Assembly: GCA_019306365.1 (NCBI GenBank)
Contig: JAFDLS010000040.1
Location: 1 to 33,597 of the forward strand
Length of the DNA: 33,597 bases
Origin: Deltaproteobacteria bacterium
Lineage (GTDB): Bacteria > Desulfobacterota > Desulfarculia > Adiutricales > JAFDHD01
Direction: 5' to 3'
A program made the translations under genes and the position numbers. Shown in pieces: positions 6 to 30,686 of this stretch. The number at the start of each line of letters is the position of its first letter. Position 1 is the first letter of the stretch. The notes under the pieces were generated by a model. It did no database searches and was not told where the DNA came from. It saw nothing but the letters and a program-made list of their open reading frames with translations.

Positions 6-82
6 TGGTGCCCCCGGCGTGACTCGAACACGCGACACCGGGATTAGGAATCCCGAGCTCTATCCACCTGAGCTACGGGGGC
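6..82 (-). tRNA. tRNA-Arg, anticodon CCT
   Basis: Read on the minus strand this is a full cloverleaf of 77 nt including an encoded 3' CCA (TGG at 6-8 on the plus strand). The acceptor stem GCCCCCG pairs with CGGGGGC. The anticodon stem CGGGA/TCCCG holds the loop TTCCTAA, which gives anticodon CCT and reads the rare Arg codon AGG. The T-arm carries TTCGAGT. It is transcribed out of the window. Confidence 0.95.
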
Positions 83-245: not shown

Positions 246-386
246 GAGGCTTCTGTAAAACCAGTAATTTTGTTGAAATCGCGGAAGGCGAAAATTTAAC
301 CCGCAGGAATATTACTAATATTTCGAGGACTTAAATTTGAGCCTGACAAAGAGGTCAGCTAAAGGACGACGTTTTGCAGAGGTCTC
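246..386 (+). repeat. Family A MITE-like repeat, copy 1 (short form)
   Basis: A 141-bp non-coding element with imperfect terminal inverted repeats: GAGGCTTCTGTAAAAC at the left and GTTTTGCAGAGGTCTC at the right. The flanks ATCTT and ATCTC look like a 5-bp target duplication with one change. Its interior matches seven other places in the window, including the core AGGAATATTACTAATATTTC. The open frame at 337-525 begins inside it and is not a gene. Confidence 0.85.
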
Positions 387-502: not shown

Positions 503-703
503 CTAATCCTGATGTGTTGACCTGAAACGCTTGAACCTGGGAGTGTTTTTGGGAGATTGCCGGGCAGGTTTTAATCGGGAAATGGAAGAGGAATGGGGAG
601 GGGGCTGTAACGCGGAATACGACATGCTCCTCAATATATCCTGCATCTTCTTTTTGCTGATTTTCTGCACTTTCGGCAGATGTTTACGTTTGATCTTGGG
701 CAC
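503..703 (-). pseudogene. Degenerate RiPP precursor peptide, leader homologous to the precursor at 10537
   Basis: From a GTG start at 703 with a possible AAAGAGGT ribosome binding site, the minus strand encodes 66 residues. They begin MPKIKRKHLPKVQKIS and continue KKKMQDILRSM. The intact precursor at 10537 begins MPRIKIKDLPKEQKIS and continues KEELKKIMGG. The two align without gaps over 26 residues, which is too close for chance. The GG cleavage site is RS here, and the acidic helix residues are replaced by basic ones. The rest (SYSALQPPPHSSS and a basic, Pro- and Arg-rich tail) does not resemble the other core. I read it as a decayed paralog, although a divergent functional precursor cannot be excluded. 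No modification enzyme lies beside it. A family A repeat and two tRNA-Arg genes surround it. Confidence 0.5.
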
Positions 704-1162: not shown

Positions 1163-1239
1163 GGGCGATTAGCTCAGTTGGATAGAGCGTTGGTCTCCGG
1201 AACCAAAGGCCGCGCGTTCGAGTCGCGCATCGCCCACCA
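1163..1239 (+). tRNA. tRNA-Arg, anticodon CCG
   Basis: Complete 77-nt cloverleaf with encoded CCA. The acceptor stem GGGCGAT pairs with ATCGCCC. The D-arm is GCTC/GAGC, the anticodon stem is TTGGT/ACCAA with loop CTCCGGA (anticodon CCG, codon CGG), and the T-arm is GCGCG TTCGAGT CGCGC. A rho-independent terminator follows 10 nt downstream. Confidence 0.96.
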
Positions 1240-1325: not shown

Positions 1326-1481
1326 GAGACGCTGCAGCGCGGCATTGATCACCGCTTCGCTGACGCTGCAGCGGCATATGTCAGGCTCAAAATTAAGTCC
1401 TCGAAATATTGGCAATATTCCTGCGGATTAAATTTTCTCCTTCCGCGATTTCAGCAAAATTACTGGTCTTGCAGAGACCTC
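1326..1481 (-). repeat. Family A MITE-like repeat, copy 2 (long form, damaged)
   Basis: Reverse-oriented copy. It contains the inner segment CTGACGCTGCAGCGGCATAT, the conserved block TTAAGTCCTCGAAATATT, and an end reading TTGCAGAGACCTC. The outer part at 1326-1355 is rearranged: GAGAC runs straight into a second GCTGCAGCG block, so about 30 bp of the usual end is replaced. The element is about 156 bp and non-coding. Confidence 0.75.
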
Positions 1482-7120: not shown

Positions 7121-7286
7121 TCTCAAAATTAGTGTTTTGGTCTAAATCGCGAAGAAAGAAAATTTAACCCGCAGGAATATTACTAATATTTCGAGGACTT
7201 AAATTTGAGACTGACATATGCCGATGCAGCGTCAGCGAAGCGGCGCTCATGAGGTCAGCTAAAGGACGAAGTTTTACAGAGGTCTC
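7121..7286 (+). repeat. Family A repeat, copy 3 (chimeric ends)
   Basis: About 166 bp between the GntR and sulfatase genes. The left end (TCTCAAAATTAGTGTTTTGG) is that of copy 8, while the right end (GTTTTACAGAGGTCTC) is the common type. The interior is the long form with the inner GC hairpin. No matching terminal inverted repeat remains, so it looks like a recombinant of two subtypes. Confidence 0.75.
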
Positions 7287-9083: not shown

Positions 9084-9186
9084 GAGACCCCTGCAAAACT
9101 TCATCCTTCAGCTGACTTCTTGAGCATCGCTTCGCTAACGCTGCAGCGATATATGTCAGGCTCAAATTTAAGTCCTCGAAATATTG
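9084..9186 (-). repeat. Family A repeat, copy 4 (truncated)
   Basis: Reverse-oriented. It has the intact outer end GAGACCCCTGCAAAACTTC, the inner hairpin segment and TTAAGTCCTCGAAATATT, then stops abruptly. About 65 bp of the other end is missing. Confidence 0.75.
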
Positions 9187-9345
9187 TTACTTGAAATTTC
9201 AACTATTTTCATTTATTCTTTTTTAAAAAATAAAACAAAATACATAAAATGATTATTCACCTGAGAATTATGTCTGCTAATGAATAAACAGATGACGTAC
9301 AGCGCTCCTAATTCGTTTGGACTCTTTTAAACAAACTTAACCGTT

Positions 9346-9604: not shown

Positions 9605-10018
9605 ATGGCAAAGCGAGAAAAGGAATTTGAAATTTCTGTAGCGGAAGTGGTGGATTATTTAAGAATCACAGGTGAATTCTCGCCTGCGCTGCGTGAGGTA
9701 GTTCAAAGAAAAATCACGGCGGACGCGGCCAGGAAAGCCAAAATGAAAGTCACGGCCAAACAACTTCAGAAAGCGGCTGATGCTTTCCGTATCGCGCATG
9801 GTTTGAACAAAGCCAGAGACACGAACAAGTGGCTCAAAGAGAAAGGCATCTCACTCGAAGCCTTAGAAGAGTATCTTGAAACAAATCTATTGATTGACAA
9901 ATTTAAGGACGCGCTGAACAAGAAAGTCGCCAAACGCAAATATCTGGAAACCCAGGCTATTAAAGAGACCGTTAGAGAGATGATTTATCAGGATTGGATC
10001 AAGAAAGAAATGAAATAA
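9605..10018 (+). CDS. SurA/PpiC N-domain-like helical protein, RiPP-associated (no rotamase domain)
   Basis: A 137-residue, highly charged, helical protein. The middle resembles the SurA_N-like chaperone domain of peptidyl-prolyl isomerase-annotated proteins that accompany peptide-maturation clusters: ALREVVQRKITADAARKAK near residues 28-47, then KQLQKAADAFRIAHGL near 58-73, DTNKWLKEKGIS, and EALEEYLETNLLIDKF. The C-terminal third is a basic helix pair. No PPIase (parvulin) domain follows, and there is no signal peptide, so a cytoplasmic role in holding a substrate peptide is plausible. The ribosome binding site is GAGGGG. It is separated from the precursor by a family B repeat and a promoter, so it is the first gene of the island but perhaps its own unit. 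Similarity is from memory of the family pattern; function is inferred. Confidence 0.6.
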   Translation: MAKREKEFEISVAEVVDYLRITGEFSPALREVVQRKITADAARKAKMKVTAKQLQKAADAFRIAHGLNKARDTNKWLKEKGISLEALEEYLETNLLIDKFKDALNKKVAKRKYLETQAIKETVREMIYQDWIKKEMK

Positions 10019-10026
10019 CCTGAACT

Positions 10027-10224
10027 AGAGCGTTTGTCATAAATATATTCCGTTTGACCTTGTGGTTGAGGAAGGTTTAGTTTCGGCCATTTTCGTAAAC
10101 CGCCTTACGGCAAACGCCAGAACATCATGTAATTGCTATTTGTTATATCATGGCGGCCGCTGCAAGAGCCTTGATTTACCTTAGTAATCAAACGGAACGT
10201 AATTCTGGTAATTACTATCACTGG
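10027..10224 (+). repeat. Family B structured repeat, copy 1 (198 bp)
   Basis: It starts AGAGCGTTTGTCATAAATAT and ends AATTACTATCACTGG. A second copy of exactly the same length lies reversed at 30189-30386 with roughly 80% identity by eye. Both contain two adjacent inverted repeats (GCGTTTGTCATAA-type and TAATTGCCA-type), which fold into two stem-loops. Non-coding. Confidence 0.8.
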
Positions 10225-10270
10225 GTAAAAGGCAATCGAAACCCAATGAACGGAAAGATAATATAAGCAC

Positions 10271-10338: not shown

Positions 10339-10533
10339 ATGGCGAAAATAAAAATAGCCGACCTTGAACAGATCCCCGCGACCAAGGCCAAACTCTTCTT
10401 CGGAGAAATTCTTCATCAGACCTCAGTGGAGGGAAAAAAGTTTTTAGTAAATCGTCAGGGAAGACCTGTATCCGTTATTTTAAGCTATAAGGACTACCTG
10501 GAACTGGTCGAACAAACAGAAAAACGGAGGTGA
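10339..10533 (+). CDS. Phd/YefM-like antitoxin-fold protein, solitary
   Basis: A 64-residue protein. Residues 19-55 match the Phd/YefM pattern: FFGEILHQTSVEGKKFLVNR, then QGRPVSVILSYKDYLELVEQ (the usual form is rGrPvAvLvsyedY). This family forms DNA-binding dimers that repress their own operon and neutralise a toxin encoded by the next gene. Here the next gene, 3 bp away, encodes a RiPP precursor, not a toxin. The N-terminus MAKIKIADLEQIP also resembles the precursor leader start. Its stop codon follows GGAGG, which serves as the ribosome binding site of the precursor, so the two are translationally linked. A role as regulator of the cassette is the simplest reading; leader binding is an alternative. 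Confidence 0.75.
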   Translation: MAKIKIADLEQIPATKAKLFFGEILHQTSVEGKKFLVNRQGRPVSVILSYKDYLELVEQTEKRR

Positions 10534-10536
10534 AAA

Positions 10537-10713
10537 ATGCCCCGAATCAAGATTAAAGATTTGCCCAAGGAACAAAAGATCAGCAAAGAAGAATTGAAGA
10601 AAATTATGGGAGGAATAACATTAAATCTTGGGAGCGCCCAACCCACGTTTAGCATTGATCAGATGTTTCTAAAATACGAGAGCTCGAACTGTATTGCGGG
10701 AGTGCGCGGTTAA
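10537..10713 (+). CDS. RiPP precursor peptide with GG-terminated leader
   Basis: A 58-residue peptide. Leader, residues 1-26: MPRIKIKDLPKEQKIS, then KEELKKIMGG, a charged amphipathic segment ending in a double glycine (G25-G26), typical of precursor leaders cut after GG. Core, residues 27-58: ITLNLGSAQPTFSIDQ, then MFLKYESSNCIAGVRG, with two Thr, four Ser and a single Cys (C52) as possible YcaO targets and several aliphatic and aromatic sites for radical chemistry. GGAGG lies 6 nt before the ATG and overlaps the end of the Phd-like gene. The gene is followed 44 bp later by a radical SAM gene. A decayed paralog of the leader sits at 503-703. I know of no named RiPP class with this core; the precursor assignment rests on leader shape and context. 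Confidence 0.85.
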   Translation: MPRIKIKDLPKEQKISKEELKKIMGGITLNLGSAQPTFSIDQMFLKYESSNCIAGVRG

Positions 10714-10757: not shown

Positions 10758-12587
10758 ATGGATGCCAAAGCCATCCTCGTGGATCTAGGTCCGATCTATT
10801 CTCATAACCCCAAAAGGAATGGGTTAAATGACAACCTTGGCCTGGGTTATATCAGCGCTTATTGCCGGAGTGTTGGCCACGAAGTAGAAATACTGACTCG
10901 AGGTAATACAAGGTTCACCCTCGAAGAGATGGCCGCGTATATAATCTCCCGCGGCTATAAGGTCGTTGGGGTCAGCCTGACCCAGGAAAGGGTGGACATA
11001 GGTAATTATTTTATCAGGCTGTTGCGCGATAACGGCTGTAGCGCCCACATCACGCTCGGCGGATACCTGCCTACACTTGCTCCTGAAGCCGTGCTCGATA
11101 TTTTTTCAGGGATCGACTCGCTCGTGACAAACGAAGGGGAGTTGACCTTCGCAGAGTTACTCCAGGCCATAGAAAATAACCAGCCCCTTGAGATTCCAGG
11201 ACTGCTGACCCGGAAGACATTAAAAGTTGGAACATTTGTACCGAGGCCTTTGATCGAGGATTTGGACTCCCTTCCTTTTCCAGACCGTCCCGGCCAGGTC
11301 GGTCCTTCTGAAGTCACCTGGTTATACTCCAGCAGGGGATGCAGTTCGCGCTGTACTTTTTGCAGCATTCACGTTTTCTATCAAGACTGCGGCTGGCGCC
11401 CCCGCTCCGTGAGCAACGTTGTTGATGAAATCGAGCGCCTCGTGAAAGACAAGGGGGTGCGCGAAATTCAGTTTTGCGATGACAACTTTCTCTGCGGCCG
11501 TAAAGGAGTCAAAAGAGCCAGGCAAATAGCTGAGGCAATTATCAAACGGGGCCTTGATATTTCCTTCACTATTGAATGCCGGCTTGAATCAGTCGAGTTA
11601 GACCTGTTCGAGTTTTTAAAGAAAGCGGGTCTGGATACAGTCCTGGTTGGGGTGGAAAGCATCGACGAAGCCTCCCTGGAGCTCTTTAAAAAACATCGTC
11701 CTGAAGGGTTACTGGATCGAGCCTTAAGTATTTTAGACTCACTCGACATCCGGGTGCACCTCGGCTTTATCATGTTCAATCCAGCCAGTACCATTGAATC
11801 GATCCGAAAGAATATCGCGTTTTTAAGATCCAGGTTCAAACAGGGCAAGATATCGCCCTGGGAAATGTTTTTATGCTATACCAGCATACTGCAACCCAAT
11901 ACCGGTACTTCTCTGGTAGAACAACTGCTTCAAGCCTCCCGGCTTATCGAAGTATCTCCCTTGAAACTGGAAATGCACTACGAACAAACGCCTCTGGAGA
12001 TGCTGCTGGAAGTAAGGAATTCACTGCGTTACCAGATAGAGAGCTTTGTTTATGGAGTGCGTTCGATGTTTCGTACCGACAGTTATTCACCGGAAATGGT
12101 TAAAGCCGGAGAAAAGCTCGTTGACGAGTCGCACACTTTAGGCATTGAGATGATGGAATACCTTGCTAAAAAACTCGGCTCATCCGCAGAACCTGTTAAA
12201 AACGAGGAGCGGATTCAGGAAAAACTGCTGGCGAAGATTGACAGGCTTAATGATCACGCCGAACGTTATTTTAAAAAATATGAGAAGGCGGTGGAGTTTA
12301 GTTTCCATGGTATTAATGAAAATGGGAATGACTGGATCTACAACCCAAGCACCAACCAGCAAACCGCCCTCCCCGCGCAGACTCTTGACCTGCTGCATTT
12401 CTGGCAATACCGATATTATAGAAAAGACGATCCTCGCGCGGATAATATTAACAGTCAGGCTCGCACGGCCTGCAAAAAACTGATTAAACAAAACATGTTG
12501 GCCAGTACCCCGAGCGGAAAGATTTTCGGTGATACCGAAATAAGTCCTTTCATCCTCTGGGACGCGCTTGAAGGGTCTAATCAATAA
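10758..12587 (+). CDS. B12-binding radical SAM enzyme (first of three)
   Basis: A 609-residue protein. Residues 1-140 form a cobalamin-binding Rossmann domain (GLGYISAYCRSVGHEVEIL, ITLGGYLPTLAPEAV, LVTNEGELTFAELL). The radical SAM core begins with RGC195-SSR-C199-TF-C202, the CxxxCxxC motif that binds the 4Fe-4S cluster, and runs to about residue 360 (DNFLCG, LVGVESIDEASLELFKKH, HLGFIMFNPASTIE). A C-terminal region of about 200 residues has no obvious family. Such enzymes methylate unactivated carbons or carry out other radical changes with cobalamin. It is probably the direct partner of the precursor, being the next gene (44 bp, ribosome binding site TAGGA). It is a paralog of the enzyme at 16853; both share HITLGGY[LF]PT and FGFIMF/LGFIMF. 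The reaction is unknown. Confidence 0.9.
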   Translation: MDAKAILVDLGPIYSHNPKRNGLNDNLGLGYISAYCRSVGHEVEILTRGNTRFTLEEMAAYIISRGYKVVGVSLTQERVDIGNYFIRLLRDNGCSAHITLGGYLPTLAPEAVLDIFSGIDSLVTNEGELTFAELLQAIENNQPLEIPGLLTRKTLKVGTFVPRPLIEDLDSLPFPDRPGQVGPSEVTWLYSSRGCSSRCTFCSIHVFYQDCGWRPRSVSNVVDEIERLVKDKGVREIQFCDDNFLCGRKGVKRARQIAEAIIKRGLDISFTIECRLESVELDLFEFLKKAGLDTVLVGVESIDEASLELFKKHRPEGLLDRALSILDSLDIRVHLGFIMFNPASTIESIRKNIAFLRSRFKQGKISPWEMFLCYTSILQPNTGTSLVEQLLQASRLIEVSPLKLEMHYEQTPLEMLLEVRNSLRYQIESFVYGVRSMFRTDSYSPEMVKAGEKLVDESHTLGIEMMEYLAKKLGSSAEPVKNEERIQEKLLAKIDRLNDHAERYFKKYEKAVEFSFHGINENGNDWIYNPSTNQQTALPAQTLDLLHFWQYRYYRKDDPRADNINSQARTACKKLIKQNMLASTPSGKIFGDTEISPFILWDALEGSNQ

Positions 12588-12651: not shown

Positions 12652-14091
12652 ATGGCACGGATAGTAATTAAGGATATTGTATCCCTGGAGCCAGGAAAAG
12701 GGAAACCACAGGTAAGGCTTTCCAGGACACGTAACGGTGATCCGCCTGACGTCACGCTTATAAACCTGAATCTGATGCTGATCAATAACGCCGGCCGCTT
12801 TGACCAGCAAAATTATATACCCCTGGGGCTGTTGTACATAGCCGCCTGCCTGGAGCGGGAAGGGTGCAACGTCGAATTCATTGATTACCAGCTGTTTTCT
12901 CATTCGAGAAATTTTGACGCTGATCTTTTTGTAAAGAAAATAATTTCACCAGCTAAAATAATCGGTCTTAGCTGCATGTCCAATCTCCTCCCTTTTACGA
13001 TCCTTTGCGCGGAAAAACTGAAAAAGCATCATCCAGAATGCAAAGTCATTCTGGGAGGCGTCGGCCCCTCGCCTGTTGCTAAAGAGATTATCAAAGCCTT
13101 CCCATTTATTGACAGCGTCGTGGAAGGAGAGGGTGAACTTGCGATGCTCGATTTCGTTCGAGGCCACATCGCGCCGCTTCCTCCCAGGCGCGTAATCAAG
13201 GATCTCGACACCCTCCCTCTGCCTTCTTACTCACTCCTGGACTTTGACTTTTACGACGCCGCGCCCAGCATTATCTCATCGCGCGGTTGTCCTTACCGGT
13301 GTACTTTCTGTACCGAACCGCATAACTTCAGTGGAGCGGTACGTTATCGAAGCGTTGATTCTGTGATTGAAGAACTGGAATTGGTACACTCACTTTCCGG
13401 CTGTGAGCTCTTTCTTTTTCAAGATGACATACTGCCGCTCGACCGTGCGCGTTTCAAAAAACTGTTCAAGGGCTTCGGTAAGCTTTCATTTCCCATCGAA
13501 TGGAAATGCTTCTCACGAGTTGATCTGATGGATGAAGATCTCATGCGCGAAATGACTGACAACGGATGCGTTCAGATTAGATATGGAATCGAGTCAGGAT
13601 CCAACAATACGCTCAAAAGAATAAAAAAAGGCTTTAAAATAGAAAAGGCTTACGAGATAGCTAAAAAATCAATTAAACATTTCCCAAGCGTTCATGCTTC
13701 CTTTATTTGGGGATACCCATTCGAAAGCATGGACGAATTTGAAACAACCCTGGATTGGGTATCCAGATTTGAAGACGCTGGCATAACCGTTCTTTTATTT
13801 GAATACAGCCCTCTGCCCGGTTCTCAGATCTACAGGGAATATAAAGGAGAACTCAATTTTTCCAAGGAGACCTATTCTTTTTTTATCGTAACCGGCCACG
13901 AAGTTGTCAGTACAGATGGTTTTAATACAAAGCCGAAAACCAGCCCCATTTACAAGATGATCATGAAATATCCTCAAATATTTTCCGGCTTCTACAAGTA
14001 TGAAAACACAACCTCTTACTGGAAAAATGAAAGGCTGGAGCAATATCGGTTGACCGGGCGAACTTCAGCCAGAAATGAATATGATCTTTGA
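12652..14091 (+). CDS. B12-binding radical SAM enzyme (second), with leader-like N-terminus
   Basis: A 479-residue protein. Unlike its two relatives, it has about 32 residues before the cobalamin domain, beginning MARIVIKDIVSLEPGKGK, which resembles the precursor leader start. The B12 domain runs from DVTLINLNLM (residue 33) through VILGGVGPSPVAKEII and VVEGEGELAMLDF. The radical SAM motif is RGC213-PYR-C217-TF-C220. Later blocks (FLFQDDILPLDRARF, IRYGIESGSNNTLKRIKKGF) are typical of the family. There is little sequence after the core, so it lacks the long C-terminal region of the first enzyme. It is 64 bp after the first enzyme and 9 bp before the SDR gene, so it is in an operon with both. 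The alternative that translation starts later is possible but no better start with a ribosome binding site is seen. Confidence 0.9.
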   Translation: MARIVIKDIVSLEPGKGKPQVRLSRTRNGDPPDVTLINLNLMLINNAGRFDQQNYIPLGLLYIAACLEREGCNVEFIDYQLFSHSRNFDADLFVKKIISPAKIIGLSCMSNLLPFTILCAEKLKKHHPECKVILGGVGPSPVAKEIIKAFPFIDSVVEGEGELAMLDFVRGHIAPLPPRRVIKDLDTLPLPSYSLLDFDFYDAAPSIISSRGCPYRCTFCTEPHNFSGAVRYRSVDSVIEELELVHSLSGCELFLFQDDILPLDRARFKKLFKGFGKLSFPIEWKCFSRVDLMDEDLMREMTDNGCVQIRYGIESGSNNTLKRIKKGFKIEKAYEIAKKSIKHFPSVHASFIWGYPFESMDEFETTLDWVSRFEDAGITVLLFEYSPLPGSQIYREYKGELNFSKETYSFFIVTGHEVVSTDGFNTKPKTSPIYKMIMKYPQIFSGFYKYENTTSYWKNERLEQYRLTGRTSARNEYDL

Positions 14092-14946: not shown

Positions 14947-15087
14947 GAGACCTCTGCAAAACCAGTAATTTTGTTGAAATCGCGGAAGGCGAAAATTTAA
15001 CCCGCAGGAATATTAATAATATTTCGAGGACTTAAATTTGAGCCTGACAAAGAGGTCAGCTAAAGGACGATGTTTTGCAGAGGTCTC
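14947..15087 (+). mobile_element. Family A MITE-like repeat, copy 5 (short form, perfect ends, 5-bp duplication)
   Basis: 141 bp with perfect 16-bp terminal inverted repeats GAGACCTCTGCAAAAC / GTTTTGCAGAGGTCTC, flanked on both sides by TTATA (14942-14946 and 15088-15092). The duplication shows it arrived by transposition. It lies between the SDR and YcaO genes, 65 bp before the YcaO start. No transposase is encoded. Confidence 0.92.
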
Positions 15088-15152: not shown

Positions 15153-16586
15153 ATGGCCCGGCTTCAAATAAAAGACCTTCCAGACACAAAAGCCATCGGA
15201 TTTTTCCCCCAAAAAACAGGGCCCATTTCCTTAAGTTCACGAATCCACACCTTCCATGAAAACGGCCACAGGGTAGTTAGTCCCAAACAGACAATCCAAA
15301 GGTTAGCCGGCGTCCTTAAGCAAAATCACATTAATTTTTCAAGCCAGCGAGTTCGTTCATCCCCGCGAAGCAAGCTGGATGAATATTTCTTTGTGCATAG
15401 GGTTACTTCTGATATTTTATGGGACAACTTTGGAAAAGATTACGCGTTGGGCAAAGGATTGACCCGCGATCAGTCGGTTGTCAGCGGCCTTAGTGAACTG
15501 ATCGAACGCTTTTCAGCGCTTTTACAACCGGAAGATGAGTTTTTGGAGTTGTCCGCGCATGACCTTAAAAAAAGGGGAGAACAAATTCTTCACCCCCGAG
15601 TCATGGGCCTGCCCGGCCCAAAACAGATAACCCTAAAAAAGCTTGATCCTTTTTATGAAGATCGCCCCATCAAGTGGGCTAAAGGTTGGCACCTGCTTAA
15701 TGAAAAGCCCGTTTTCGCGCCCATTGCTTACACTCACCTTTTCCCGGCCAGTGTAATTGGCGCTCCCAACCGGTTGGTAGAAAATCGTCCGAACGGGTTG
15801 GCGGCGGGTAATTGCCTGGAAGAAGCGATTCTCCAGGCCATACTGGAGCTTGTGGAAAGGGATGCCCAGGCCATATTTATCTGGAACCAGCTTCCCATGC
15901 CCGAAATCGATTTGAAGACACTGCCTCAAAAAAACAACTTCGAGCTCCACCGGGTCCTGAACGCGGCTCAGGCCAGCGGTCTCAAGGTAATTCTAAAGGA
16001 TATTACCTCTGATATAAAAATACCCACCATCTACGCGTTTGGTATAGATGAAATGGAAGAAGGCCCCGCTTTCCAATGGGGCGTGGGGTCACATCTGGAT
16101 CCGTCCATCGCTGTCTCACGCGCCCTCACTGAACTGATCCAGGTAAGAACGGTATTTTCGAGATTTAAAAAGGCCGTACCGAAAAATATTGAGGCTCAGC
16201 ATTCATCTCAATGGCTTTCAGAAAATGAGGAAGCCGTGCGGTTTATGAAATTCTGCTATCTGGACGCCTGGGAATCAGTCCGCTATATTACTCAAACGCG
16301 CCGGACCATTTCTTTTAAGGATATATCCGCCCCTTCTGACAAGGACATTCTGACTGAAATCAAATATTGTTTCGAGCAGATTTCCGGGGCGGGATTAACG
16401 GATGTGATTGCGATCAATCACACCCGTTTCGGTTTGGATTTTCCTGTGGTGCGCGTCCTTATTCCCGGTTTGGAGTTCATTCCCTGGGCGGATTATCGTT
16501 TTATTGATAATGCCAATCGCAGGCTGGCGCGTCCTTCTATCGACTACGTCTTTGGAAGCGGGAAGGATAGTAATTTTCTTCTTTGA
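15153..16586 (+). CDS. YcaO-domain ATP-dependent peptide backbone-modifying enzyme
   Basis: A 477-residue YcaO. Family enzymes phosphorylate peptide amides to make azolines, thioamides or amidines. ATP/Mg motifs are present: GKGLTRDQSVVSGLSELIER (E115, E118), then RPNGLAAGNCLEEAILQAIL, continuing ELVERD (N220, E224, E232, D237), then ALTELIQVR, and a late VVRVLIPGLEFIPWADYR. The C-terminus, SIDYVFGSGKDSNFLL, lacks the PxPxP end of classical cyclodehydratases. No E1-like/ocin-ThiF or TfuA partner is in the window, so it acts alone or with a distant partner. The N-terminus MARLQIKDLPDTKAIGF copies the precursor leader start (MPRIKIKDLP). A family A repeat lies just upstream and another just downstream. 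Enzyme family is firm; azole, thioamide and amidine outcomes are all open. Confidence 0.93.
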   Translation: MARLQIKDLPDTKAIGFFPQKTGPISLSSRIHTFHENGHRVVSPKQTIQRLAGVLKQNHINFSSQRVRSSPRSKLDEYFFVHRVTSDILWDNFGKDYALGKGLTRDQSVVSGLSELIERFSALLQPEDEFLELSAHDLKKRGEQILHPRVMGLPGPKQITLKKLDPFYEDRPIKWAKGWHLLNEKPVFAPIAYTHLFPASVIGAPNRLVENRPNGLAAGNCLEEAILQAILELVERDAQAIFIWNQLPMPEIDLKTLPQKNNFELHRVLNAAQASGLKVILKDITSDIKIPTIYAFGIDEMEEGPAFQWGVGSHLDPSIAVSRALTELIQVRTVFSRFKKAVPKNIEAQHSSQWLSENEEAVRFMKFCYLDAWESVRYITQTRRTISFKDISAPSDKDILTEIKYCFEQISGAGLTDVIAINHTRFGLDFPVVRVLIPGLEFIPWADYRFIDNANRRLARPSIDYVFGSGKDSNFLL

Positions 16587-16658: not shown

Positions 16659-16831
16659 GAGGCCTCTGCAAAACCAGTAATTTTGTTGAAATCGCGGAAG
16701 GTGAAAAATTAACCCGCAGGAATATTACTAATATTTCGAGGACTTAAATTTGAGCCTGGCATATGCCGCTGCAGCATCAGCGAAGCGGCGCTCATGAGGT
16801 CAGCTAAAGGACGAAGTTTTGCAGAGGTCTC
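16659..16831 (+). mobile_element. Family A MITE-like repeat, copy 6 (long form, 5-bp duplication)
   Basis: 173 bp, ends GAGGCCTCTGCAAAAC / GTTTTGCAGAGGTCTC, flanked by TTAAA on both sides (16654-16658 and 16832-16836). It contains the extra 32-bp GC hairpin (GCCGCTGCAGC...GCGAAGCGGC) that the short form lacks. It ends only 21 bp before the third radical SAM start codon, so it occupies that gene's 5' leader region. Confidence 0.92.
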
Positions 16832-16852: not shown

Positions 16853-18436
16853 ATGAAAGTCCTGCTCATTCAAAACAGCCCATTTGAAACACACCGCTCA
16901 TGGAATTACCTGGAACACCTTGGGCTTGGCTTTTTAGAAAAAGTTCTTACAGAACATGGCTTTTTGGTGGATGTTTTCGATGCGACCTGGAACTGGGATG
17001 ACGCGAAGTCAACAATTAAGAAGACATGGCCGCCGAAAAAAAATTATCACCTGATCGGATTTTCAGTAAACCGTTCAAACTTTGCGGCTTCGGCAGAAAC
17101 GATAAAACTGCTCAGGGAAAAGGGATTTAAGGGCCATATCACCCTGGGAGGTTATTTCCCTACTTTTCACTTCGAAAAAATACTCAGCAATTTTACCGAA
17201 ATCGACTCGATCGTTCTGGGACACGGTGAAAACACCTTTCTTAGACTCTGCCAATCTATTAGAGAAAACAAATCACCTGAAGATATACCGGGCCTAGCCT
17301 TTCGTTCTGACCATAAAAGAGTCAAGTCAAGCCCTAATTTTGAGACAGAAATTTTTTTGAAAACGGTGGGAATTCCCATCCATCGCCCTCGTTACGGCGT
17401 GGCCAGAATGATCACCAGTCGCGGTTGTCATTATCGGTGCACGTTTTGCTGTATAAACTCTTTTGACCGATACAATTTCAAAAGCAAACATCACAGACGC
17501 AGCCTGGATGAAGTACTGGAAGAAGTTGACCTGCTGGTTCATGAACATAATGTAAATCATATCTGGTTTTCTGATATGGAATTCATTGGTAAGGACAAGA
17601 AATTTGTAGGGGATTTTTGCGATCATATTATTAAAAAGGGTTACGATATTACTTTCGAGGCTGACTGCCGTGTCGATTCCTTAAATGAAACCGTAATAAA
17701 AAAAATGTCCAAAGCAGGGTTCAACGCCTTGTTCCTGGGTGTGGAAAGCTTTGCGGATCGTCAAACAGACGACTACAATAAGTTTAAAAAGAATTATGAT
17801 AAGAATAATATTTTCGAAATTGTTTCGCTAATGAAGAAGTATAATGTCACTCCTCGGTTTGGTTTTATTATGTTCGATAAAAACACGACCATAGATGACC
17901 TTATTCTCAATCATCAGGTCATATCATCCTCGGTCGGATACGGCACGTTGGACGGTCTTGCCAATAAACTGGCCGTGCTGCCTGGCACAAAAATCGAATC
18001 CGATTATCTAGAAGACAAAGAGCGCTGCTGGCAGGTTGAGATCGATAAAAACAACCGCCTTGAATCTCACCTCTATTACCCGCAGTATAAATTCAAAGAT
18101 CCCAGGGTTGTATTTTTATATGAAGTCAGTTTTTCATTTCGTAACAAGATTACACGGCTGCAAGAATTGTTTGATCAATATCTAAAAGAAGAGTCCTTGT
18201 CGTATGGAAAACACACGGCTATTCTCTGGGACATTCGTGATTTATTTGGGCAAATTTTTGAGCGTTTACTTTCTTTTGTTAAGGAGGAAAGTCCACCCTT
18301 TTATTATTCAGATGAATTGAGGCAGGAATTGGATGACATTTTCGTGGATTACTGTGCTCAGTTTGGGTTTGCATCACAAACTATTCAAAATATCCTTGAT
18401 GAGGAATATAAAAACCCGGGCATGCCCCACCCTTAA
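16853..18436 (+). CDS. B12-binding radical SAM enzyme (third)
   Basis: A 527-residue paralog of the enzyme at 10758. The cobalamin domain covers residues 1-140 (LGLGFLEKVLTEHGFLVDVF, HITLGGYFPTFHFEKIL, IVLGHGENTFLRLC). The cluster motif is RGC192-HYR-C196-TF-C199, followed by another Cys (C200). The core continues with DMEFIGKDKKF, LFLGVESFADRQTDDYNKF and RFGFIMFDKNTTID. A C-terminal region of about 170 residues follows the core, as in the first enzyme. There is no good ribosome binding site: a mobile repeat ends 21 bp before the ATG and may have altered its expression. It probably modifies the same precursor; which residue or reaction cannot be told. Confidence 0.9.
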   Translation: MKVLLIQNSPFETHRSWNYLEHLGLGFLEKVLTEHGFLVDVFDATWNWDDAKSTIKKTWPPKKNYHLIGFSVNRSNFAASAETIKLLREKGFKGHITLGGYFPTFHFEKILSNFTEIDSIVLGHGENTFLRLCQSIRENKSPEDIPGLAFRSDHKRVKSSPNFETEIFLKTVGIPIHRPRYGVARMITSRGCHYRCTFCCINSFDRYNFKSKHHRRSLDEVLEEVDLLVHEHNVNHIWFSDMEFIGKDKKFVGDFCDHIIKKGYDITFEADCRVDSLNETVIKKMSKAGFNALFLGVESFADRQTDDYNKFKKNYDKNNIFEIVSLMKKYNVTPRFGFIMFDKNTTIDDLILNHQVISSSVGYGTLDGLANKLAVLPGTKIESDYLEDKERCWQVEIDKNNRLESHLYYPQYKFKDPRVVFLYEVSFSFRNKITRLQELFDQYLKEESLSYGKHTAILWDIRDLFGQIFERLLSFVKEESPPFYYSDELRQELDDIFVDYCAQFGFASQTIQNILDEEYKNPGMPHP

Positions 18437-18478: not shown

Positions 18479-18650
18479 GAGGCCTCTGCAAAACCAGTAA
18501 TTTTGTTGAAATCGCGGAAGGCGAAAATTTACCCGCAGGAATATTGCTAATATTTCGAGGACTTAAATTTGAGCCTGACATATGCCGCTGCAGCGTCAGC
18601 GAAGCGGCGCGCATGAGGTCGGCTAAAGGACGAAGTTTTGCAGAGGCCTC
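18479..18650 (+). repeat. Family A MITE-like repeat, copy 7 (long form)
   Basis: 172 bp with terminal inverted repeats GAGGCCTCTGCAAAAC / GTTTTGCAGAGGCCTC, a perfect 16-bp match. Includes the 32-bp inner hairpin. The flanks (ATTTT and AAATT) are not a clear duplication. It lies between the third radical SAM gene and the VOC gene, in the same orientation as copies 5 and 6. Confidence 0.9.
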
Positions 18651-19239: not shown

Positions 19240-19948
19240 CGTTTTATTAAAAAACATCTTTACCTGAAATGACTTAATCGCCCCGGTTGCGATACCTATA
19301 TTTTTAAAATGGGAAATGGGTGTAGATACCCACGGGGTACGCCCGTGGTCTTCAACGTTTTTACTGATAAAACCCGGATATTTCTAACCTGGGCCGGCCA
19401 AAGACCTCATTTCTTCCAAAGGCATCGCTCGTCGCCGTGACAAACCAGACCAAGACGAGCGACGCTTTATGAATAGGAAAGTTATATTTAAAATAGCAAT
19501 TATTTTAGTACGATAATACTTAAATTCATTGAATATTTTAAGCCGCAAAACAGCACCTAAAAAACACTATAATAATAATTATTATTAACTTGACATTCAT
19601 CTCTTTGAATTGTTACGGTGATTTAATTTCCAACACGTTAGTAATGGTCAGGTCTTTTTATCTCAAAATTAGCGTTTTGGTCTAAATCGCGGAGAAAGAA
19701 AATTTAACCCGCAGGAATATGTTAAATATTTCGAGGACTTAATTTTTTGTACGACAATGAGTTAGGGTAAACAAACTTTTTTGAGATGGCTTCAAGATAG
19801 AAGTTTATTGCTTACCACACGAGGCAATGAAGTCCGATCCCACAGTGAATCAAAAAACTATAAAGATCATTTCTTATCTTTCGAAACTAGTTTTCCCAAA
19901 ACCCAATCCACCCAATCCCCTAAACTATATTTATAAAGGAGGAAAAGG
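19240..19948. other. Intergenic region before the second Dpp-type operon
   Basis: No supported gene. It holds the hairpin CCACGGG / CCCGTGG at 19330-19348, a longer stem GCATCGCTCGTC / GACGAGCGACGC at 19422-19465 (one mismatch, 20-nt loop), the family A-related repeat at 19661-19786 and a TTGACA at about 19591 without a good -10 box. Confidence 0.5.
19661..19786 (+). repeat. Family A-related repeat, copy 8 (divergent ends)
   Basis: It shares the central block (AAATTTAACCCGCAGGAATAT and ATATTTCGAGGACTTAA) with the other copies. Its ends are different: TCTCAAAATTAGCGTTTTGG at the left and TTTTTTGAGA at the right, which form their own short inverted repeat. It defines a second subtype; copy 3 has this subtype's left end. 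Confidence 0.7.
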
Positions 19949-30028: not shown

Positions 30029-30686
30029 AACGACATCTCCATTATCTCTTTTAATGTTTTAAATATTTTCCGTCATATTGACGGTTATGACGTCTAAAAA
30101 TTTAACCAACCTTAATTTTCAACACTTATCGCAAAAGGCATTAAGAGAAATTAAGGCAGTCTAATCAAATACAACATTCTGTTGTTATCCAGCTATAGTA
30201 ATTGCCAAAATTATCTTCCGTTCGGTTACTACGGTAAATCAAGACTTTAACGGCGGCTGCCATGATATAAAAAATGGCAATTACATGATGTTTTAGCGTT
30301 TGTCATAAGATGGCTTACGAGAACAACCGAAACTAAATCTTCTCCTATCCCAAGGTCAAACGGAAAATATTTATGACAAACGCTCTGATACTAACCGGAA
30401 GCTATTGAACACAATCATTATTGTCAATTATTTTTACCCTGTTATTTTAACTTGCCAAATGATCAATAGCAAAGGAAATTGGGGTCAAGGAAGCGCTTCG
30501 CCTTTAATTTTAAAAAAAGATTTGACTTGCGATAAGAGTTTTAGGAGCATTGACTATCTTAAATACTTTTTTATTTTGAGTTAAAGGGCCTGGCCAATTC
30601 AAACCGAACGTATTTAGCGAATAGACAATACCGGCTTTTAACTGGTGTTTGTATTTTTACTTAAACGCAATAGGGTGAGGTGATTC
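30029..30686. other. Divergent intergenic region, 658 bp
   Basis: It holds the second family B repeat (30189-30386) and otherwise AT-rich sequence. It must contain the promoters of the ligase gene (minus) and of the oxidase-like gene (plus), but no strong -35/-10 pair stands out. No supported ORF. Confidence 0.5.
30189..30386 (-). repeat. Family B structured repeat, copy 2 (198 bp, reverse)
   Basis: Reverse complement of the element at 10027-10224 and of identical length. Two perfect inverted repeats are visible: GTAATTGCCA / TGGCAATTAC (30198-30207 with 30275-30284) and AGCGTTTGTCATAA / TTATGACAAACGCT (30295-30308 with 30371-30384). They would fold into two neighbouring stem-loops. No coding capacity. 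Confidence 0.85.

Follow-up and report, generated by a model that had tools for sequence, protein, structure and literature searches.

The DNA analysed here (the window) is the whole 33,597-nt contig C2 of a draft genome of 3.59 Mb in 383 contigs (G000). An intact RiPP precursor gene, consisting of the leader MPRIKIKDLPKEQKISKEELKKIMGG and a core, is located at 10537-10713 on the plus strand, and the tail of this core is conserved in G001, the only genome of the same genus: the cores of C2 and G001:C72 share DQMF[LM]KYE[ST]xNC[IV]AGVRG. The precursor is followed on the same strand by B12-binding radical SAM enzymes at 10758-12587, 12652-14091 and 16853-18436 and by a YcaO enzyme at 15153-16586, the last three assigned by Pfam. 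A SurA/PpiC-related protein, which resembles TIGR04500 below the cut-off, is encoded at 9605-10018 (plus). About 10 kb away, between two tRNA-Arg genes, two degenerate copies of the precursor leader lie on the minus strand, relic B at 626-703 and relic A at 754-830.

The leaders of the precursor family follow the consensus MARIKIKDLPKDQKISKEExKKVxGG, and members are recognized as short genes that open with the pattern M-x-[RK]-I-K-I-K-D-L-P...K-I-S-K-E-E-x-K-K-[VI]-x-G-G. The initial annotation had reported, at 503-703, a minus-strand frame whose leader aligns without gaps with the intact leader over 26 positions and carries RS in place of GG. This frame is present, with 66 codons and a GTG start that had been read as 'M', and a Shine-Dalgarno-like AAGAGG stands approximately 9 nt upstream of it. 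The gap-free alignment to the leader at 10537 also holds, with 14 of 26 positions identical (counted by eye), and the codons at the double-glycine site are AGG and AGC (Arg-Ser), each one G>A transition away from a Gly codon. Relic B lacks I6, G25 and G26, all invariant in the family. When mismatches were scored by codon position against the leave-one-out consensus, relic B gave 13/3/13, compared to at most 6/3/17 for intact leaders, and seven of its first-position letters are never seen in the latter. The constraint on first codon positions is lost in relic B, and this suggests that its decay is older or faster. The open frame behind the leader (503-625, minus) matches none of the known cores of the family; because these cores are generally unrelated to one another, this says nothing either way. 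A possible relationship of this tail to a leader-bearing glycosyltransferase, suggested by SSISR in both, was rejected, since 1320 of 2000 shuffles reached the score of the tail. Relic B matched 0 families when scanned against NCBIfam.

Relic A, which the initial annotation did not see, lies just upstream of relic B on the same strand, at a spacing of 127 bases, and was delineated by DNA and protein profiles and by alignment. It reads IERFIIKKLPKNTKISKHEMK. The start codon is missing, with ATA at the expected ATG, and a single base is deleted in an A run directly before the (K)VLGG end, which consequently stands in another frame; the LGG end itself is kept, and the reading stops soon after. 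Its mismatches by codon position are 7/3/15, which suggests that relic A was lost recently. Because the double glycine is replaced by Arg-Ser in relic B and stands out of frame in relic A, both are designated pseudogenes of the leader family rather than working members of it.

The initial annotation had left the significance of the similarity to a profile search. A DNA profile was built from 12 intact leader genes, each extended upstream by 30 bases, the relics being excluded, and over the whole window it found three significant sites: the intact gene (E=5.8e-19), relic A (E=4.1e-8; match 820-755, minus) and relic B (E=4.6e-5 per window, or about 0.005 per genome; match 718-636, minus). With a HMMER protein profile of seven leaders, relic A reached E=1.3e-5 (2.5e-5 in a further protein profile search) and relic B E=0.108, so that relic B is significant by the DNA profile but not by this protein profile; its one-to-one protein comparison with the intact gene gave E=0.01, and comparison at the protein level would on its own leave it a borderline case. 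Relic A scores above relic B with both the DNA and the protein profiles. In an ungapped protein PSSM, relic B scored 29.0 bits and relic A 21.9 bits; order-2 random sequence amounting to 10.8 Mb yielded no more than 7.05 bits, and the highest score among 60 windows simulated with a first-order model was 11.2 bits. In control loci, many of which had been preselected because they ranked at the top of the profile hits in 59 further genomes, the best non-leader stretch scored 18.1 bits. In addition, tblastn searches with several other precursor frames hit the relic region independently. Both relics thus qualify as homologous DNA of the leader family, and the only intact leader in the window is that at 10537.

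It is improbable that relic B is a diverged precursor or peptide gene that is still in use with a processing site other than GG. Its frame runs for 66 codons without a stop behind a plausible ribosome-binding site, so that translation might persist, and a leader without GG (KRLRDS) opens an intact gene in G001, where it is fused to a glycosyltransferase-like protein of 384 aa. However, the three invariant residues and the first-position constraint are gone, no homolog was found for the tail, and relic B adjoins an unambiguous dead copy, relic A. Moreover, because GG is lost, the product should not be cut or exported even if it were made. Relic B is therefore presumed to be non-functional.

The relic pair belongs to a family that is scattered through the genome. 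Eight intact leader-core genes are found on six contigs, namely C2, C104, C341, C254, C286 (two) and C301 (two). The second copy on C254 (C254b) contains an internal in-frame TAA, and the copy on C313 is N-terminally truncated; there, at 2273-2428 (L020), what is present is the 3' half of the leader, including GG, together with a core, and it overlaps the end of an aminotransferase gene; this piece is either another remnant or a gene whose leader was lost by the overlap. A candidate second copy on C186 was rejected as a fragment of an unrelated frame. In G001, four intact leader-core genes are present, and a further leader, on G001:C30, is cut after 15 residues. Tandem precursor pairs similar to the relic pair occur on C254, on G001:C19 and at L103. 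The cores look unrelated in nearly every copy, the exceptions being the orthologous clusters and the C254 tandem; the two cores of C286 look partly alike. The earlier proposal that leader-core genes duplicate and disperse is thus borne out as far as dispersal is concerned, and the copies probably arose by duplication. The family is rare: in a sample of the phylum it was found in this genome and one other among 395, and in a collection of 84,980 species at five named loci; one Zodletone deltaproteobacterial MAG accounts for three of these, and the remaining two are labelled Latescibacterota and Clostridia. No leader was found in the plasmids and viral contigs searched.

The nearness of two tRNA-Arg genes and a MITE, pointed out in the initial annotation, is real, but a link to the relics did not emerge, since the tRNA genes diverge and the MITE is too common. 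Both tRNA genes, tRNA-Arg(CCT) at 6-82 (minus) and tRNA-Arg(CCG) at 1163-1239 (plus), are transcribed away from the relics. Because they diverge, their 3' ends, the parts used by integrases, face outward, and these bystander genes are probably next to the relics by coincidence. Copies of the MITE-like dispersed repeat stand at 256-386 (plus) and, in inverted orientation, at 1345-1472 (minus), and further copies in the window are located at 7124-7286, 9084-9190, 14956-15087, 16668-16831, 18488-18650 and 19664-19756. The repeat is about 130-164 bp long and was matched 17 times in the 91 kb of contigs that were sampled, or approximately once every 5 kb. Three precursors and the relic pair have a copy no more than 150 bp away; at this density such proximity is not clearly above expectation, and the repeat was rejected as a carrier. 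None was found in the sampled loci of G001, although the G001 precursors are also dispersed; the MITE-like family has possibly expanded recently in this genome. Another dispersed repeat, approximately 200 bp long, occurs in the window at 10027-10228 and 30185-30386, at L019 1944-2137 and 8641-8828, and at L016 3008-3198; two of its copies stand just upstream of the precursors of C2 and C301b. The inter-tRNA region has no match in G001, whose syntenic transporter locus carries neither tRNA nor leader, and in another genome (G005) the two tRNA genes lie apart, with no relic. No intact allele of the relic locus was found with which decay in place could be demonstrated.

Several precursors of this genome have no linked maturase. 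The precursor of C104 lies among housekeeping genes with coenzyme A and redox functions, and similarly that of G001:C100 lies among genes of the pantothenate pathway (identities read from translations). Such orphan precursors may be linked to enzymes beyond the contig ends of the 383-contig draft. In each of the two genomes exactly one C39 peptidase domain is detectable, on G000:C124 and G001:C19; it is part of an open frame, about 1040 aa long, which was read as an ABC exporter. On C124, the exporter and PPIase-like genes are present and a search for leader genes found none; the PpiC/SurA-like proteins beside the C39 exporter are related to the window protein at 9605. Since the leaders terminate in a double glycine, nearly all precursors must be cleaved and exported in trans if the C39 exporter handles them. 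Regarding the earlier suggestion that the enzymes act in trans, GG cleavage and export in trans can therefore be considered well supported in G000, where the exporter is unlinked, and modification may likewise occur in trans.

As an alternative, the initial annotation had considered that an old cassette was lost at this locus. A complete cassette of precursors and maturases, of which only the precursors are left, might be expected from the tandem precursors of C254 and C286, which adjoin maturases. However, when the region 83-2333 was searched by tblastn with 624 frames from the leader-bearing contigs, only MITE and leader matches were obtained. No maturase fragment and no other trace of a maturation gene was found there, and since orphan precursors are common in the family, the loss of a cassette here has a low probability, about that of a still-used relic B.

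Leader-like sequences are also found at the N-termini of enzymes. The next sites of the DNA profile after the three significant ones were the starts of the YcaO gene (15135) and of a B12-binding radical SAM gene (12643). The YcaO enzyme begins with MARLQIKDLP and the radical SAM enzyme at 12652 with MARIVIKDI, whereas the radical SAM enzyme at 10758 has no leader-like N-terminus. Scored over the first 12 leader columns, for which 180 control ORFs gave a maximum of 9.7, the YcaO N-terminus reached 24.3 (25.8 in G001), that of the radical SAM enzyme 16.4 (16.2 in G001), that of the G001 glycosyltransferase 20.7, and that of a 599-aa methyltransferase-like protein of L102, which has no family match, 18.2. 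A degenerate DNA motif pattern run over both whole genomes found 16 places, compared to zero for the reversed control, and these were exclusively precursor leaders (including the cut one of G001:C30), the YcaO gene of the window, and the radical SAM gene in both species. In these two enzymes the leader motif is conserved between the species and is followed by a variable linker and then by a conserved body. The leader-motif enzyme starts are located at 15153-15182 and 12652-12678 in the window, at L067 6606 and 4238, at L068 7329 (minus) and at L102 5047. Two weaker possible tags were observed in addition: MAKIKIADL (10339-10371) opens a small Phd/YefM-like protein that is encoded upstream of the intact precursor, and a 189-aa protein of C254, weakly similar to ApyI, ends with ARIKIRDLE (L017 1847-1876, minus).

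A docking tag would be the simplest reading of these N-termini. The fuller proposal is speculative: the leader may be a portable tag that the YcaO enzyme, one B12-binding radical SAM enzyme and the glycosyltransferase-like and methyltransferase-like proteins, having no recognition domain of their own, carry at the N-terminus as a copy probably captured from precursor genes, and through which a partner enzyme may recruit them by its leader-binding (RRE) domain; dispersing and dying precursors would then supply the modules. The C-terminal domain of the radical SAM enzyme at 10758 is possibly RRE-like, a weak indication: its model shows the beta-beta-beta-alpha-alpha order of RRE domains at a pLDDT of 44, which is too poor for the model to serve as evidence, and no PDB sequence relative was found. 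The structure model of the YcaO enzyme (pLDDT 30) was also too poor to use.

The existence of leader-tagged enzymes, one of them likewise without GG, raises the question of whether the relics are the leader-bearing 5' ends of genes of the YcaO, radical SAM or glycosyltransferase type and not of precursors. This is less probable still, since relic A retains its LGG end and stops shortly after it, the tail of relic B is unlike the glycosyltransferase, and no enzyme remains were found in the region 83-2333. Finally, the similarity might be due to chance in a lysine-rich translation, and the protein-profile value of relic B alone could be cited for this. Chance is, however, very hard to reconcile with two same-strand matches 127 bp apart at the DNA-profile values given above, with the independent tblastn hits and with null scores far below those of the relics, and on these comparisons it can be rejected both for relic A and for the two relics together.

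Taken together, the stretch at 626-830 on the minus strand is best explained, with a probability of roughly 0.87, as a tandem pseudogene pair of a lineage-specific, dispersed RiPP precursor family served by an exporter in trans. According to this explanation, precursor genes would multiply and scatter as small units of ribosome-binding site, leader and core, often without maturation genes, and GG cleavage and export would be the task, in trans, of a single unlinked ABC exporter with a C39 peptidase, assisted by accessory proteins of the PpiC/SurA-like type. Copies that are not needed would erode; relic A would have been broken through a frameshift and the loss of its start codon, and relic B would have diverged further until GG was gone. 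The dead precursor pair alone is of moderate interest, and it is the behaviour of the family and the leader-tagged maturases that raise it. A RiPP precursor family from outside the cyanobacteria would be seen here while its members arise, disperse and die; the dead copies establish which way the change runs, and many precursors would have to share one unlinked exporter. Genome mining that looks for precursors in the neighbourhood of maturases would overlook several of those in this genome. In addition, the leader-like N-termini of the maturases raise a testable question about the recruitment of multi-enzyme RiPP assemblies.

Several known systems bear comparison. Graspetide clusters with TIGR04500 PpiC-type proteins (PMC13097080) share with this system a PpiC/SurA-like protein beside the precursor or the exporter; here, the similarity to TIGR04500 is below the cut-off, and none of the scanned proteins was identified as an ATP-grasp ligase. 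The B12-binding radical SAM enzymes of the cluster resemble, among other families, ApyD of the aminopyruvatide type, although the ApyD equivalog cut-off is far from reached (142 vs 750 bits). The nearest named leader family is TIGR04149 (GG_sam_targ_CFB, Bacteroidetes), which likewise combines a short, K/L-rich leader ending in GG with radical SAM maturases; the similarity is weak and sub-threshold, the intact full-length precursors tested reaching at most 17.2 bits and one leader fragment alone 21.4 bits against a cut-off of 25 bits. In the prochlorosins and synechococsins (ProcA/SyncA and ProcM), many precursors with a common leader and different cores are scattered over the genome, singly or clustered, and are processed in trans (PMC10783134). 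Multiple unlinked precursors with a common leader and divergent cores are found here as well, so that the system works like the prochlorosins by dispersal, a likeness that does not itself establish class membership. The prochlorosins have a Nif11-like leader and one lanthipeptide synthetase; in contrast, the present system has another leader, without a Nif11 match when the leaders were scanned against NCBIfam, and B12-binding radical SAM, YcaO and SPASM radical SAM enzymes. Compared with the prochlorosins, dead copies and leader-tagged enzymes are features described here, from sequence only.
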